Source: a bacterium
GTDB taxonomy: Bacteria; B130-G9
DNA: 51,017 nucleotides
Assembly (NCBI GenBank): GCA_035527515.1
Contig: DATLAJ010000063.1
Coordinates: 1 to 51,017 of the forward strand
Direction of reading: 5' to 3'
The position numbers and the translations under genes are program-made. How positions within the stretch are numbered: position 1 is the first letter of the stretch; every line of letters starts with the position of its first letter. Below are positions 23,775-51,017 of this stretch, in pieces. The notes below the pieces were generated by a model. That model had not been told where the DNA came from. It worked only from the letters and a program-made list of their open reading frames with translations, and searched no databases.

Positions 23775-23872
23775 TGGCGGAAGCGTGTGGGAATCGAACC
23801 CACCAGAGACGGTTTCTGCCGCCCCTTGCTGGATTTGAAGTCCAGAAGACCCACCAGGACCTATCCGCCTCC
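23775..23872 (-). tRNA. selC: tRNA-Sec (UCA)
   Basis: Read on the - strand it begins GGAGGCGGATAGGTCC and ends GCTTCCGCCA with an encoded CCA. The anticodon stem-loop CTGGACTTCAAATCCAG gives anticodon TCA (23836-23838). There is a long extra arm (GGGGCGGCAGAAACCGTCTC) and a T arm GTGGG/CCCAC around TTCGATT. The total of 98 bases, the extended acceptor stem and the long variable arm are hallmarks of selenocysteine tRNA; SerV-type tRNAs with UCA are otherwise not expected. It shows that the organism decodes some UGA codons as selenocysteine. No selA, selB or selenoprotein gene is visible in the window. Confidence 0.93.
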
Positions 23873-45601: not shown

Positions 45602-45851
45602 ACTCTCCAGCAGCTATCTCGCTGATAATATAAGGATAACTAGGGCAAACATACGCCGAAGACAGACCGAAAGTCAAAATGGCGGCAGTTCCCAATTGAT
45701 TGCCTCCTGCCCCGGCTCACTGACGGCTTTGTCAGAACGTTTGCGATAAAGCTATCTCCCACTAGATACGAATAGAGAGTTGTCGGAAGGGCCTCCTAAG
45801 GAGGCGATTAGGGAAAATCTGAAATGAGTGCGAATACGAGGGTCTCAAGTC

Positions 45852-47228
45852 ATGGCCTCTCGCGGAAATGTTCTAGTCGTTGATGACGACGAGTCGATTC
45901 GCTCCGTTCTCTGTGAGGTCCTCGGAGAGGATGGCTTCAGCGCAACGAGCGCCTCGGGTGCGGAGGAGGCTCTGCGCAAGGTTGGCAATGGGAAAGACTT
46001 CGACGTCGTCATAACGGACGTCAAGATGAGCGGCATGGACGGGATGGAGCTCCAGCGCCGCGTCAAGGAGCGAAGCGACTACGTTGAGGTCGTGATAATC
46101 ACGGCCTTCGGGGACATCCCAATGAGCGTTCAGGCGATGAAGCAGGGAGCCTTTGAGTTCCTGACAAAGCCGTTTGGCACGATTGACCATGTCGTCCTTG
46201 TGACGAGGCGAGCAGCAGAGAAGGCGCAGATGGCCAAGAAGCTCCAGAGGCTGACGGACACGTTCGAGCCGCGCGACCGTCTGAGCGGCCTCATCGGGGC
46301 GAGCGAGCCAATGCAGGCCGTATATCGCCGCGTTGTCCAGCTCGCCAAGACCGACTCGACAGTGCTCCTCTTGGGGGAGACCGGCACGGGCAAGGAGATG
46401 ACCGTGCGTGCGATTCACAATCTCAGCGCAAGAAAAGATGCGCCGTTCGTTGCTGTCAACTGCGGTAGTCTGCCAGAATCACTGCTCGAGAGCGAGCTCT
46501 TCGGGCACACAAAAGGCTCCTTCACCGGAGCGTCGTCCAGCAAGTTGGGGCTGTTCGCATCGGCATCAGGCGGCTCGATCCTTCTGGATGAGATCGAGGC
46601 CGCCAAACAGGGCACTCAGATCGCCCTCCTACGGGTGCTTGACTCCATGAAGATACGGCCCATTGGCAGCAACAAGTCTCAGAAGGTCGATGTCCGTGTG
46701 TTTGCGGCGAGCAACGATGACCTCGAGGCGCGAGTTGAGGATGGTTCGTTTAGAAAGGACCTATACTACCGCCTGGTCTCAGCGATCATCACGCTGCCGG
46801 CTTTGCGGGAGCGTCGTTCGGACGTGCCGATTTTGGCCGAATACTTTCTGCGGCTCTACTGTAAGACCTATGGGCAGGCTACGAAACGGCTTTCGCCCAG
46901 AGCCAGCGAGCTGATCATGAGATACGAGTGGCCTGGCAACGTGCGGGAGCTCAAGCACGCGATAGAGCACGGGATCATCTTCTCAAGCGGTCCTGTTGTG
47001 GGACCGAAGGACCTGCCGAAGGCGATTACGTTCTGCCCCAACCACGCCTCGTTTGTTCCCTTGGCCGAGCTGGAGAAGCGGCATGTCGAGAAAGCGCTTC
47101 AGCTGAGCGCTTTCAACAAGGCGAAAGCGGCGAAGCTCTTGGGCCTAAGCAGACAGGCCTTATACCGCAAGATCGAGCGCTATGGTCTTGAGCTCGAGAG
47201 GGCAGTGACCGGAAGCGGACAGTTCTGA
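45852..47228 (+). CDS. NtrC-family sigma-54-dependent response regulator
   Basis: 458 residues. Receiver domain about 5-120 with VVDDDES acidic pair, phosphoacceptor Asp 56 in ITDVKMSGMDG, and Lys in FLTKPFG. The AAA+ domain follows: Walker A GETGTGKEMTVRAI (about 175), the sigma-54-contact loop as GSFTGA in place of the usual GAFTGA, Walker B GSILLDEI, and RNVREL-type PGNVRELKHAIEHG. A C-terminal Fis-type HTH (NKAKAAKLLGLSRQALYRKI) binds DNA. Known: such proteins activate sigma-54 promoters; PilR is one example. No histidine kinase is next to it. Start chosen as the ATG at 45852; a GTG 24 bases upstream is possible. Confidence 0.92.
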   Translation: MASRGNVLVVDDDESIRSVLCEVLGEDGFSATSASGAEEALRKVGNGKDFDVVITDVKMSGMDGMELQRRVKERSDYVEVVIITAFGDIPMSVQAMKQGAFEFLTKPFGTIDHVVLVTRRAAEKAQMAKKLQRLTDTFEPRDRLSGLIGASEPMQAVYRRVVQLAKTDSTVLLLGETGTGKEMTVRAIHNLSARKDAPFVAVNCGSLPESLLESELFGHTKGSFTGASSSKLGLFASASGGSILLDEIEAAKQGTQIALLRVLDSMKIRPIGSNKSQKVDVRVFAASNDDLEARVEDGSFRKDLYYRLVSAIITLPALRERRSDVPILAEYFLRLYCKTYGQATKRLSPRASELIMRYEWPGNVRELKHAIEHGIIFSSGPVVGPKDLPKAITFCPNHASFVPLAELEKRHVEKALQLSAFNKAKAAKLLGLSRQALYRKIERYGLELERAVTGSGQF

Positions 47229-47526: not shown

Positions 47527-47943
47527 TTGCGAGAATTGCAGTATTCGGATGAGAAGAGGGGCCGAGATGAGTTCCCAACGGGGAGGCTCGCGGTCATAGT
47601 GGCCTCAGAGGACAGGGCTCAATGCGGCAAGATCAAAGGCATCCTGAAGGACCAGCAGTTCAGGGTGATGGATGCGCCCTTGCCGAACAGGCCCATGCCG
47701 GTAGAAAACCTGCTTACGCCCTCGGCAATCGTAGTCCAGGTTGAGCCTGACCCGGCCGAGGTCTCAGCTGAGATCGCCTCATTGCGGTCGCGAGACCCTG
47801 AGGTGCCGATCCTGTTTGCGGTTGACGCGAATACGGAACAGCTGGAGATCAGTGTTAGAAAGATGGGAGTTCAATATTACATGCTCCTGCCGGAGGAGGT
47901 GGACAGCTTGGCGGTGATCGTCAACTGTCTCGTCAGAGCGTAG
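47527..47943 (+). CDS. Degenerate receiver-like (pseudo-REC) protein
   Basis: 138 residues starting at a TTG with AGGAG six bases upstream. The first 22 residues are hydrophilic. Then a fold with the shape of a receiver domain can be traced: LAVIVASEDRAQCGKIKGIL (beta1-alpha1), SAIVVQVEPDPAE (beta3), VPILFAVDANTEQ (beta4) and VQYYMLLPEEVDSLAVIV (beta5-alpha5). The position of the phosphoacceptor Asp after beta3 reads VQVEP and the usual acidic pair after beta1 is SED, so phosphorylation is doubtful. It probably acts by protein contact. It sits between a sigma-54 activator and the pilin gene with its own sigma-54-type promoter. Confidence 0.6.
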   Translation: MRELQYSDEKRGRDEFPTGRLAVIVASEDRAQCGKIKGILKDQQFRVMDAPLPNRPMPVENLLTPSAIVVQVEPDPAEVSAEIASLRSRDPEVPILFAVDANTEQLEISVRKMGVQYYMLLPEEVDSLAVIVNCLVRA

Positions 47944-48593
47944 GTTCTCCCGGAGGCCGAAACTCGCCATTGGCTGCGACTTTCCTGGTCACAGGATGCG
48001 GGAGTTCCCCCAAGACTTTGCCTCGGTAGATTGTGTTATTGTCTGTGAAGCGGTGATTTGGACGTTCAAAAAAGTGGAGTTGGCCAGCTCGGCTGATATG
48101 GCCCTGAAAGGGCCTGACGTGAGTAGCCCGTGTGCAACGCGGGGTTACGGTTGCATTCAAATCCATCTTCGCGACCCCAACGAGGTCGAACAAAGACCTG
48201 TGCGTGAACGTCGCGGAATCTCCGTGCCCACCCACCACCCTTCTTGAGGATCGTGCTGCTTTGGTCCCCACGCTGCGCCTTTCGGCTTGCATGGGGCTAT
48301 TCACGTTCAGCCCTTTCAGGGCTGACGATGTTTTCCCCCACCTTCGAGGCCCAACGGGGTGAGTGTCCGGAAACGGACTTTGCCTGAAATCACACATAAG
48401 CAACAGCTTGGAGCAAGGCCCGGCCAGTTGGTTATGGCTCCTGCGCTGCAATTGGTCCGGATACGGACGATTCAGTTGGCTGGCGGTCTTGCGGCTTTAC
48501 TGCTCCGCTAAAGCTACGCAGCACAAGTACTACTCTGCGAACAAGGCTTCCTGTGGGGACGCAGAGCAGCAACGGCCAACAAGATCGCTAAAG
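47944..48593. other. Gene-free stretch with palindromic repeats
   Basis: I see no gene that I can support here. Two hairpins stand out: GGCCCTGAAAGGGCC (48100-48114) and CAGCCCTTTCAGGGCTG (48308-48324). A 20-mer spanning the second, GTTCAGCCCTTTCAGGGCTG, also occurs (inverted) within the 362-bp element at 33106-33468, and CGTGAGTAGC at 48118-48127 recurs there too. The stretch 48100-48370 may therefore be a decayed relative of that repeat family. Confidence 0.55.
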
Positions 48594-48609
48594 TGGCATG
48601 GAACATGCT
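48594..48609 (+). promoter_or_regulatory. Sigma-54-type (-24/-12) promoter upstream of the pilin leader
   Basis: TGGCATGGAACATGCT keeps GG and GC elements 10 bases apart, matching TGGCAY-N5-wTGCw. Transcription would start near 48620 and give a leader of about 190 bases before the pilin gene. PilR-type activation of pilin genes from sigma-54 promoters is well known in other bacteria, and an NtrC-family gene lies 1.4 kb upstream. Confidence 0.65.
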
Positions 48610-48619
48610 CCGATAAGTG

Positions 48620-48810
48620 GAGAGTGAAAATGAAAGCAAGTGAGAAGGTAGCTAAGCGGAGGTATTCAACCTCGCTCATTCTGAGTAATGCGAAAGGAGG
48701 TGCTAACGGAAAGCCTGGAGGGATTTAGCCATACATCGTTTTTGATGTGTGGAGGTAACATCCGCCCGTAATTCGGGCGACCCCACAGTATTACTAATAG
48801 GAGAAAAAAA
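48620..48810 (+). promoter_or_regulatory. Structured pilin mRNA leader
   Basis: From the predicted start to the pilin GTG the RNA can form several stems: GCGGAGGT/ACCTCGC near 48655, a long imperfect hairpin with GGATTTA...CCATACATC pairing with GATGTGTGG...TAACATCC (about 48720-48767), and CGCCCG/CGGGCG (about 48764-48780). The ribosome-binding site is GGAG before AAAAAAA. The layout suggests translational or processing control. It does not match clearly any known riboswitch by eye, although such leaders are sometimes cyclic di-GMP sensors in other bacteria. Confidence 0.4.
48630..48728 (+). CDS. Possible 32-residue leader peptide before the pilin
   Basis: ATG with GGAGAG eight bases upstream opens a short basic frame (MKASEKVAKRRYSTSLILSN), ending in GGANGKPGGI and a TAG. 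It is just downstream of the predicted sigma-54 promoter and 80 bases before the pilin. It could be a true small peptide or simply a chance frame through a structured leader RNA; only expression or conservation data can decide. Confidence 0.3.
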   Translation: MKASEKVAKRRYSTSLILSNAKGGANGKPGGI

Positions 48811-49224
48811 GTGGGACAACAACAACTATTGCTGATTGTGTTGAGTATTATCATCGTCGGGATCGCGGTGGTAATCGGTCTGGGCCTGTTCAGTGAGGGC
48901 GCCGACCAGGCCAACGTCGACCAGGTGGTTCAGGATGTCGTGTCCATGGGCGCACGGGCTCAGCAGTATTACATGAAGCCGGCTGCGCTCGGTGGCGGTG
49001 GTCAGTCGTTTGTGGGCATTGCAGTAGATGACATCGGCTCTGCCACAAATAGGAACGGCGACAGCTACGTTGTTTCTGGCGCGTCTGCAACTCAGGTAAC
49101 AGTTACAGGCACGTGTGTTACGGCCAAGATGGACGATGACGCCACGGCGGTCAACGTTGTCGGGACAGTAACTCCGGTCAATGTTACGACAGTGATCAAC
49201 AAGACGTCAGGCGGCGGAGAGTAA
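48811..49224 (+). CDS. Atypical type IV pilin-like protein (MGQQQLLL family)
   Basis: 137 residues from a GTG seven bases after GGAG. The N-terminus MGQQQLLLIVLSIIIVGIAV has a minimal leader (Met-Gly) followed by a 20-residue hydrophobic helix, like the assembly helix of type IV pilins. The usual Phe +1 and Glu +5 are missing: the residues after Gly are Gln-Gln-Gln-Leu-Leu. The remainder is a short beta-rich head with ARAQQYYMKPAALGGGGQSF, a motif common in pseudopilin-like subunits, and no cysteine pair beyond single Cys. It is followed by a strong terminator, then pilC and pilB-type genes, which supports a pilus or pseudopilus role. Confidence 0.7.
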   Translation: MGQQQLLLIVLSIIIVGIAVVIGLGLFSEGADQANVDQVVQDVVSMGARAQQYYMKPAALGGGGQSFVGIAVDDIGSATNRNGDSYVVSGASATQVTVTGTCVTAKMDDDATAVNVVGTVTPVNVTTVINKTSGGGE

Positions 49225-49238
49225 TCAAGTATGTTGTG

Positions 49239-49272
49239 GGCAGGCCCAACTCGTTTTGGGCCTGCCTTTTTT
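49239..49272 (+). terminator. Rho-independent terminator after the pilin gene
   Basis: GGCAGGCCCAA and TTGGGCCTGCC (49239-49249 and 49256-49266) form a perfect 11-bp stem with a six-base loop, followed by TTTTTT. It separates abundant pilin mRNA from the downstream assembly genes, letting only some transcripts read on. Confidence 0.93.
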
Positions 49273-49296: not shown

Positions 49297-50646
49297 ATGG
49301 CGGAGTTTAGATACCACGGGATGAGTGCGGCCGGTCGGCCCGTTCAGGGGATGCTTGCAGCCAGCAACAAGAGGGCGGCACATCTCAAGCTTGCGGAGTT
49401 GATGCGGGCCAAGCGGTTCAGTCTCAGTTCTTTAGAGAAGAAGCGGACTTACGTTTACAGGGTCCAGAAGGGGACAGAGAAAACCGTCACAGCTGAAAGG
49501 AAGGCATATTCCCCCGAGGAGCTCGCGCGCGCCCTTCGCGCAATTGGTTACAGAGTCATATCGGTGCGGAGGAAGGTGCTTGACTTCAACATGCGTCCTC
49601 CGACCAGGGACGTGGTGATGTTCATCAGGCTCGGCGCGGACCTTTTGCGAGAGAAGCTGCCCTATGACGAGGTTCTACAGCTGTTGGGGGGTGATATCCA
49701 GAACAAGCCCCTGAGGGACGCAATTAAGGAGATCAGCAGCGACCTGAAGGACGGCAAAGAGGGGAAGGAAGTATTCGCCAAACAGGAGGGGGCGCTTGGG
49801 CGTTTTGCGGCGCACATGCTTGGCGTCGCCTCGACAAGCGGGAACATGGTGGAGATATACGAGAGCACTGCGAAGTTTTTGGAGCGGAACCAGACGTTCA
49901 AGAAGAACCTTAGAAGCGCACTCATCATGCCAATGGTGACGGTGTTTTTACTGCTGTGTGCAACGCTGTTCTATGTTGGGTACATATTCCCTAAGACGGC
50001 GGAGATGTTCCTGAAGTTCAAGATGGAACTACCTCCAATGACCAAGTTCACGCTCGCCATGAGTCATTTTTTGCAGGACCAGGCGTTCGTCATCCTTGCC
50101 GCGGTTATTGTTCCGATAGTAATTGGGTTGAGGTTCGCTTTCAGCAAGAAAGGTCGGCTTTTTGTTGATAAGTATATTATTCGGCTGCCGATCATAGGCA
50201 CTGTCCTACATAAGACCAGCATAGAGATATTCTGCCGGGTGTTCACGGCGCTCTACTCAGGTTCGGGCGAGAACATCGACGTGCTCAGGACTGCGGCTGA
50301 GGCGTGCCGCAATCGCTACATGGAGCGTCAGATCAAGGAGATCACACTTCCGATGATGATCAAGGAGGGCAAGGGTCTAGTCGAGTCGCTGGAGAAGACA
50401 GGTGTGTTCACCGACAACGCGCTCAATAGACTGCGAGGCGGTGCGGAGACAGGGACGCTTCGTAAGACAGCGCTGCAAGTAGCGAACTACTACGAGAAGG
50501 AGACGACCTACAAGATGAAGGCGATCATCGATTGGGCGCAGGTCTTCGTCGCGTTTTTCGTCCTGATAGTAATGACCGCGATAACGGTTGTCTCTTCGGA
50601 GACGGCGATCATAAAGCCTAAGAGACCGGGGGTTACAACGCAATAA
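49297..50646 (+). CDS. pilC: PilC/GspF-family inner-membrane platform protein
   Basis: 449 residues. An N-terminal region of about 100 residues (AEFRYHGMSAAGRPVQGML, the usual start) is followed by two GspF repeats. Each has a cytoplasmic helical bundle ending in membrane segments: MVTVFLLLCATLFYVGYIF (about 210-228), AFVILAAVIVPIVIGLRFAF and the C-terminal VFVAFFVLIVMTAITVVSS. GVFTDNALNRLRGGAETGTL is the typical second-repeat motif. It links the assembly ATPase to the pilus base. Its stop overlaps the next start by one base. Confidence 0.92.
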   Translation: MAEFRYHGMSAAGRPVQGMLAASNKRAAHLKLAELMRAKRFSLSSLEKKRTYVYRVQKGTEKTVTAERKAYSPEELARALRAIGYRVISVRRKVLDFNMRPPTRDVVMFIRLGADLLREKLPYDEVLQLLGGDIQNKPLRDAIKEISSDLKDGKEGKEVFAKQEGALGRFAAHMLGVASTSGNMVEIYESTAKFLERNQTFKKNLRSALIMPMVTVFLLLCATLFYVGYIFPKTAEMFLKFKMELPPMTKFTLAMSHFLQDQAFVILAAVIVPIVIGLRFAFSKKGRLFVDKYIIRLPIIGTVLHKTSIEIFCRVFTALYSGSGENIDVLRTAAEACRNRYMERQIKEITLPMMIKEGKGLVESLEKTGVFTDNALNRLRGGAETGTLRKTALQVANYYEKETTYKMKAIIDWAQVFVAFFVLIVMTAITVVSSETAIIKPKRPGVTTQ

Positions 50647-51017
50647 TGTTACCTGCGCCACCCCAGGGGAGATTTGGAAGCGCTCTGGTCGATAACGGCG
50701 TCATCGACGAGGAGATACTGGACAAGGCGCTTCAGATACAGAGCTCGGAGGTCGAGGCCACCCGCCGCAAGCTTGGCGAGATACTTGTTCAGGACCTCGG
50801 GGTGGATCGGCACAGGGTCTATAAGGAGATCGCCAACATCTACGCATTCCGAACGATAGAGCTTACGGAGGGGGACCTGGAGGAGGACGGGATAAGGTTC
50901 ATCAGCGACCTGATGGATAGCATCAGCGGCGAGATGCGTGGCTACCTGATCAGCAAGAAGGTTCTGCCCTACAAGCTCCACCCGGTCAAGCATGGCGTTC
51001 TGATAGTGGTGTGCGCT
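50646..51017 (+). CDS. PilB/GspE-type assembly ATPase, N-terminal part (cut by window end)
   Basis: Starts at an ATG that shares one base with the pilC stop and stays open to the end of the window (124 codons). The sequence MLPAPPQGRFGSALVDNGVI, DEEILDKALQIQ, RRKLGEILVQDLG and VYKEIANIYAFRTIELTEGD is a T2SSE_N/MshEN-type domain, as at the start of PilB/GspE ATPases. The ATPase core would follow to the right. Known MshEN domains can bind cyclic di-GMP. Gene order pilC then pilB is reversed from the usual pilB-pilC. Confidence 0.75.
   Translation, partial: MLPAPPQGRFGSALVDNGVIDEEILDKALQIQSSEVEATRRKLGEILVQDLGVDRHRVYKEIANIYAFRTIELTEGDLEEDGIRFISDLMDSISGEMRGYLISKKVLPYKLHPVKHGVLIVVCA

Follow-up and report, generated by a model that had tools for sequence, protein, structure and literature searches.

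A pilin locus in a Coatesbacteria-type genome

The window (the whole 51,017-nucleotide stretch of DNA analysed here, contig DATLAJ010000063.1) ends in a cluster of type IV-like pilus genes. The source genome, a draft of 3.47 Mb over 183 contigs, is that of a Coatesbacteria-type bacterium, a member of a little-known phylum. The cluster begins with genes for an NtrC-type regulator and a small receiver-like protein. An intergenic region of ~650 bp plus a leader separates these from genes for the pilin and, beyond a terminator, PilC/GspF-like and PilB/GspE-like proteins:

45828-47228, plus strand: NtrC-type response regulator (receiver, sigma-54 AAA+ domain with GSFTGA, Fis HTH)
47527-47943, plus strand: small receiver-like protein with weak response regulator similarity; syntenic ORFs in relative loci L011 and L012
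48811-49224, plus strand: non-classical type IV pilin (GTG start, MGQQQLLLIVLS..., 137 aa, VGQQQLLL start)
49238-49267, plus strand: intrinsic terminator between pilin and pilC (12 pairs and a T run)
49297-50646, plus strand: PilC/GspF-like platform protein (T2SSF 8e-30)
50646-51017, plus strand: N-terminus of a PilB/GspE-type ATPase with a weak MshE-type c-di-GMP motif; the contig end cuts off the rest

The terminator and the pilC/pilB-type genes that a preliminary description of this DNA placed after the pilin are thus present. The regulator matches the Pfam models Sigma54_activat (4e-62), Response_reg (1e-26) and HTH_8 (3e-13). GspF/PilC equivalog models score below their own cut-offs on the platform protein, and the full-length ATPase of a relative matches T2SSE at 9e-100. 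Our evidence throughout is comparative and draws on a family of four genomes in three genera (G000-G003, the source genome and three others), all drafts and two of them 83-86% complete.

L011 and L012 (JAFGIT010000271.1, labelled Candidatus Coatesbacteria) have the same gene order, including the NtrC-type regulator gene 5' of the pilin. In both, pilB is followed by genes for three more short proteins whose N-termini are hydrophobic (MSSGQMI..., MALADI... and MG[KR]...; positions 8769-10396 in L011 and 8570-10333 in L012). These proteins, which have no Pfam match (L012 copies) and no classical prepilin leader (L011 and L012), are probably minor pilins. Elsewhere in the window, a selenocysteine tRNA gene lies on the minus strand at 23775-23872.

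The pilin was originally described as atypical for its lack of Phe+1 and Glu+5, and this is borne out. Its N-terminus, MG-QQQLLLIVL, has no classical prepilin leader and, if cleaved after Gly2, carries Gln at +1 and Leu at +5. Structure prediction yields a lollipop-shaped model (mean pLDDT 86) with a helix at residues 2-55 and four strands. The best fold match in the PDB is full-length PAK pilin (1oqw; probability 0.90, TM 0.60) at a weak E-value of 0.35, with no match below E 0.001. In a profile search against PDB sequences the top match is 'Geopilin domain 1 protein', which is weak as well (0.019). The protein is thus predicted to adopt a type IV pilin fold, and it resembles type IV pilins such as PilA and PAK pilin in its long N-terminal helix, four-stranded sheet and adjacent PilC/PilB genes while differing from them at its N-terminus.

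We identified at least 480 confirmed sequence stretches that encode homologues of this pilin, plentiful in KSB1, Calditrichota, Ignavibacteria and Balneolales genomes. The invariance of MGQQQLLL in the homologue alignment is partly a product of the search, as its rows were largely picked by that motif. A PilC homologue is encoded at 96 of 120 homologue loci, several of the remainder being short contigs; together with the predicted fold, this supports the assignment as a non-classical pilin. Searches for a type A24 peptidase were positive in G000 and G002 and negative in G001, G003, G057 and G119. The family has no Pfam or NCBIfam model, and we found nothing directly on MGQQQLLL proteins or Coatesbacteria pili in the literature. 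Phe+1 and Glu+5 are usually held essential for pilins; MGQQQLLL proteins would constitute a large pilin family without them.

A sigma-54 site enclosed by sigma-28-type elements

We identified the following elements in the intergenic region:

48365-48378, no strand assigned: distal dyad GTCCGGAAACGGAC, a putative binding site for an activator; copies in four of four genomes at about -208 to -222 from CTAAA
48455-48468, no strand assigned: proximal dyad GTCCGGATACGGAC, a putative binding site for an activator; copies in four of four genomes at about -118 to -132
48588-48593, plus strand: sigma-28-type -35 element CTAAAG (CTAAA invariant in four of four genomes)
48594-48609, plus strand: sigma-54 -24/-12 element TGGCATGGAACATGCT, conserved in four of four genomes
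48609-48617, plus strand: sigma-28-type -10 element TCCGATAAG, invariant in four of four genomes

The -24/-12 element had been proposed before and is real: besides its conservation, it fits the genome-wide sigma-54 consensus of the family genomes. Within the window alone, the loose motif does not exceed chance (3 matches with at most one mismatch, 3.7 expected). Genome-wide pattern searches for TGGCAYGN5TGCW gave 17 matches in the source genome, where the reversed control gave 4, and 28 in one relative, where the control gave 1. RpoN is encoded in all four genomes, the G000 copy stopping at a contig end.

The dyads, of the form GTCCG-N4-CGGAC, lie ~90 bp apart at similar positions in all four genomes, the distal one imperfect in G002 and G003 and the proximal one in G002. 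Paired dyads and an adjacent NtrC-type gene are the standard enhancer layout. The regulator encoded at 45828-47228 is the probable activator of the pilin promoter and would bind at the dyads. Promoter conservation, dyads and adjacent activator gene together support the sigma-54 control first suggested for the pilin. The arrangement resembles PilR/RpoN-controlled pilA promoters, which share the -24/-12 element, upstream dyads, NtrC-type regulator and pilin target. It departs from them in the pilin's lack of Phe+1 and Glu+5 and in the enclosure of the sigma-54 site by a sigma-28-type promoter. Two inverted repeats 5' of the promoter, TCAGCCCTTTCAGGGCTGA (48307-48325) and GGCCCTGAAAGGGCC (48100-48114), are absent from the repeats listed for relatives.

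The enclosing promoter, CTAAA-N17-CCGATAAG, is as well conserved as the site within it; like the dyads and the flagellin-leader parallel described below, it is an addition to the preliminary description. The composite CTAAA.TGGCAYG.....TGCTCCGATAAG occurs ~222-227 bases 5' of the pilin in all four genomes. Invariant positions number 23 of 30 in the promoter, compared with 4 of 20 and 3 of 20 in its flanks, and, one flank base aside, variation is confined to free or C/T positions within the sigma-54 site.

Several observations implicate sigma-28 as well as sigma-54 at this promoter. First, CTAAAG is shared with the four first-flagellin promoters, which read CTAAAGTT...TCCGATAA in G002 and G003 and have a near variant with the -10 element TTCGATAA in G000 and G001. 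The pilin promoter thus carries the CTAAAG and (T)CCGATAA elements of FliA (sigma-28) flagellin promoters in the same genomes; unlike them, it has a spacer one base longer that houses the sigma-54 site. Second, the only CTAAAN15-17CCGATAAG match in the entire source genome is the one at the pilin, and the pattern occurs at the pilin in all four genomes. Third, sigma-28-type flanks were absent from all 28 other sigma-54 sites that were read in context. Finally, both sigma factors are encoded: besides RpoN, FliA scores above its cut-off in G000 and G002 (in G001 and G003, both incomplete assemblies, it scores below). We therefore infer nested sigma-28 and sigma-54 promoters, both of which may be used, with starts predicted from promoter geometry at 48620 (sigma-54) and about 48623 (sigma-28). 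The literature yielded nothing directly on nested sigma-28/sigma-54 promoters.

Alternatively, only sigma-54 may act here, with the leader working as described below and the CTAAA and TCCGATAAG flanks being left over from an ancestral sigma-28 promoter, or else another protein's site. We regard this as rather unlikely. The site's fit to the genome consensus, its dyads and its adjacent activator would all be accounted for, and the KSB1-type homologues L015, L016 and L018 have plain sigma-54 sites without sigma-28 flanks. However, the flanks contain thirteen positions that do not vary across the four genomes, compared with an invariance of 15-20% in neighbouring sequence, and these positions match the flagellin promoters. 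The sites of the three KSB1-type pilin genes are near-perfect (TGGCACGG-N3-4-TTGC) and lie 58-77 nt before the start; these genes have no distal Shine-Dalgarno (SD) sequence of the kind described next.

The pilin leader and its distal Shine-Dalgarno sequence

The predicted transcript begins with a leader that contains the following features:

48620-48810, plus strand: transcribed leader of ~190 nt, as predicted from promoter geometry
48659-48673, plus strand: hairpin 1, GAGGU-AUUCA-ACCUC; two compensatory pair changes in G003 (GAAGC/GCUUC)
48692-48702, plus strand: distal extended SD GAAAGGAGGTG, 119 nt before the start codon
48733-48748, plus strand: hairpin 2, ACAUC-loop-GAUGU, weakly supported (70% of cells paired)
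48763-48779, plus strand: hairpin 3, CGCCCG-UAAUU-CGGGCG, paired at 100% across the four genomes, with two compensatory pair changes
48798-48803, plus strand: proximal SD TAGGAG, assigned from its sequence

The leader's strongest signal, missed in the preliminary description, is the distal SD. Assuming the standard 16S tail, as in all our pairing and complementarity calculations, it pairs with the anti-SD at -19.5 kcal/mol, compared with -7.3 kcal/mol for the proximal SD. Its core, GGAGGTG, is the best conserved leader element; in the four genomes it lies 115-123 nt ahead of the start codon, and in the source genus GAAA precedes it. The distal SD lies ~75 nt inside the predicted transcript, and its core is partly paired by prediction (unpaired probability 0.23-0.41).

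Comparison establishes that the leader and promoter elements are conserved and that the distal SD is non-random, complementary to 16S rRNA and usually without a start codon. Distal SDs of at least 9 nt occur in 15 of 37 pilin leaders of the KSB1 phylum, 65-170 nt before the start, and in 0 of 91 other ORFs at the same loci. The profile of 28 leaders, GAAAGGAGGTGAT, is complementary to the standard 16S tail, somewhat sharpened by choosing the best GGAGG in each leader. Pairing energies are -12 to -23 kcal/mol for distal and -6 to -14 kcal/mol for proximal SDs, the distal being stronger in every case. A start codon lies 3-12 nt behind the distal SD in 2 of 24 leaders, compared with 6.2 expected (p 0.02). 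The distal SD thus shows two properties of a STAB-SD: complementarity to the 16S 3' end and, usually, no start codon behind it. KSB1 loci with a distal SD have no recognisable sigma-28 or sigma-54 site, and the leader element is therefore not tied to this promoter type.

Distal SDs are not confined to filament genes, on which we found nothing direct in the literature in this respect. The motif RRGGAGGTGMYR is near background genome-wide in G000 (18 matches, 15 in the control) and also occurs before some signal-peptide proteins. Distal extended SDs precede signal-peptide proteins by ~70-110 nt at L225, L229, L239 and L241, the first two of which encode DUF3344-like orthologues. A wider use for exported proteins is suggested.

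GGAGG is also a potential CsrA target. Under CsrA-FliW control, CsrA would bind the GGA-rich leader and block pilin translation, the distal GGAGG being one of its sites. The components exist in Coatesbacteria, where csrA adjoins a fliW-like ORF (L221, L218), and flagellin leaders (L165, L167, L168, L169) carry a conserved hairpin, GGGCA(A/C)GGATGCCC, with GGA in its loop, shortly before the start. This hairpin matches the CANGGANG-type CsrA site of the CsrA-FliW-regulated Campylobacter flaA flagellin leader (PMC4894983). CsrA-FliW control of flagellin is thus likely in these genomes. The pilin leader, in contrast, has no such hairpin, and shuffling shows no significant excess of GGA in pilin leaders (shuffle fraction 0.06-0.15). 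No CsrA was detected in G047, G087, G105 or G110, whose pilin leaders keep a distal SD of 9-12 nt, and the AAA...TGAT flanks of the element fit 16S rRNA and not CsrA. We therefore reject CsrA as an explanation of the distal SD and consider its control of the pilin improbable.

The hairpins raise the separate question of a structured regulatory RNA. Hairpins 1 and 3 are paired in every sequence with letters at these positions, with two compensatory pairs each; hairpin 1 aligns mostly to a gap in G002. Across the three hairpins five pairs are changed on both sides, matched by 3 of 500 shuffles, in a comparison of four sequences that is too small to carry more. An upstream ORF of 32 aa (48631-48729) was discarded, as its reading frame is lost in relatives.

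The preliminary description had suggested a pilus under both transcriptional and RNA-level control, the latter through a leader of about 190 bases with several stems. The transcriptional part stands. So do the leader and, by covariation across the family, two of its stems, while the third is weak and overall folding is only modestly better than in shuffled sequences (z = -1.9). RNA-level control through stems is upheld only in part, given that the leader matches no Rfam family and that its strongest signal is the linear distal SD.

The covarying hairpins could belong to a ligand-binding riboswitch, of the c-di-GMP class or new, and other pilin genes are known to have c-di-GMP riboswitches upstream. 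However, apart from the SD and GTAG little leader sequence is conserved, and there is no Rfam match; we give a riboswitch very little weight. The c-di-GMP-I riboswitch (RF01051), suspected by eye, gave no covariance model match in the leader, and a genome search for it gave none, although the controls of that search gave no signal either. Hits to freshwater-2 and snoZ40 fell far below gathering scores. Least credible of all is a leader peptide, a short ORF started by the distal SD whose translation controls the pilin: the SD is strong and a few leaders have nearby start-like codons, but 22 of 24 have no ATG, GTG or TTG 3-12 nt behind it, giving fewer such codons than expected, and the four Coatesbacteria leaders share no conserved ORF.

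A possible link between pilus and flagellum

The distal SD invites comparison with the STAB-SD of cry3A in Bacillus thuringiensis, an extended, non-initiating SD in the 5' UTR of an abundant protein that is complementary to the 16S 3' end (PMC4113751). Both lie >100 nt from the start codon and do not direct initiation. The cry3A element is near the 5' end of its transcript, whereas the distal SD here is well inside and belongs to the leaders of pilin and flagellin genes from uncultured phyla, where stabilisation would be its presumed effect. In all four family genomes, the first-flagellin leader carries GGAGGTGA, a distal SD of the same kind. Since that gene also has the same class of sigma-28 promoter, the two filaments may be wired together, and the partly common promoter and leader layout suggests joint control of pili and flagella.

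We lean slightly towards the following model. The locus would be the transcription unit for the major pilin within a type IV-like pilus operon of Coatesbacteria. Polymerase carrying either sigma-54 or sigma-28 could read it, and a parked 30S subunit would protect or prime the mRNA. The NtrC-type regulator, acting from the two dyads as probable enhancers, would activate the sigma-54 element in the spacer of the FliA-type promoter, and transcription by either holoenzyme would begin no more than a few bases from 48620-48624. The resulting leader would carry the conserved hairpins and a strong extended SD from which translation does not begin. A docked 30S subunit at this SD may shield the mRNA from 5'-3' decay, as in STAB-SD systems, or may serve as a ribosome reserve for the weaker ribosome-binding site at 48798. 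The terminator at 49238 would hold pilC/pilB expression below that of the pilin.

If correct, this model has one short promoter serve two unrelated classes of sigma factor as an OR gate. It would directly link pilus and flagellum production in a phylum for which we found no pilus work in the literature searched. It would also extend an element like the Bacillus STAB-SD to pilin mRNAs of Coatesbacteria and KSB1-type bacteria, and to flagellin mRNAs of Coatesbacteria. A stronger claim combines a truly dual promoter, with nearly the same start for both polymerases and a coupling of pilus to flagellum, with a conserved non-initiating ribosome-docking site in filament mRNAs of at least two phyla; we rate this as possible, leaning slightly against it.

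We also identified two neighbouring flagellin genes in three of the family genomes (G000:C155, G001:C288 and G002:C67); a sigma-28-type promoter precedes the first gene and a sigma-54-type promoter the second. Campylobacter flaA and flaB show the same order of promoter types.
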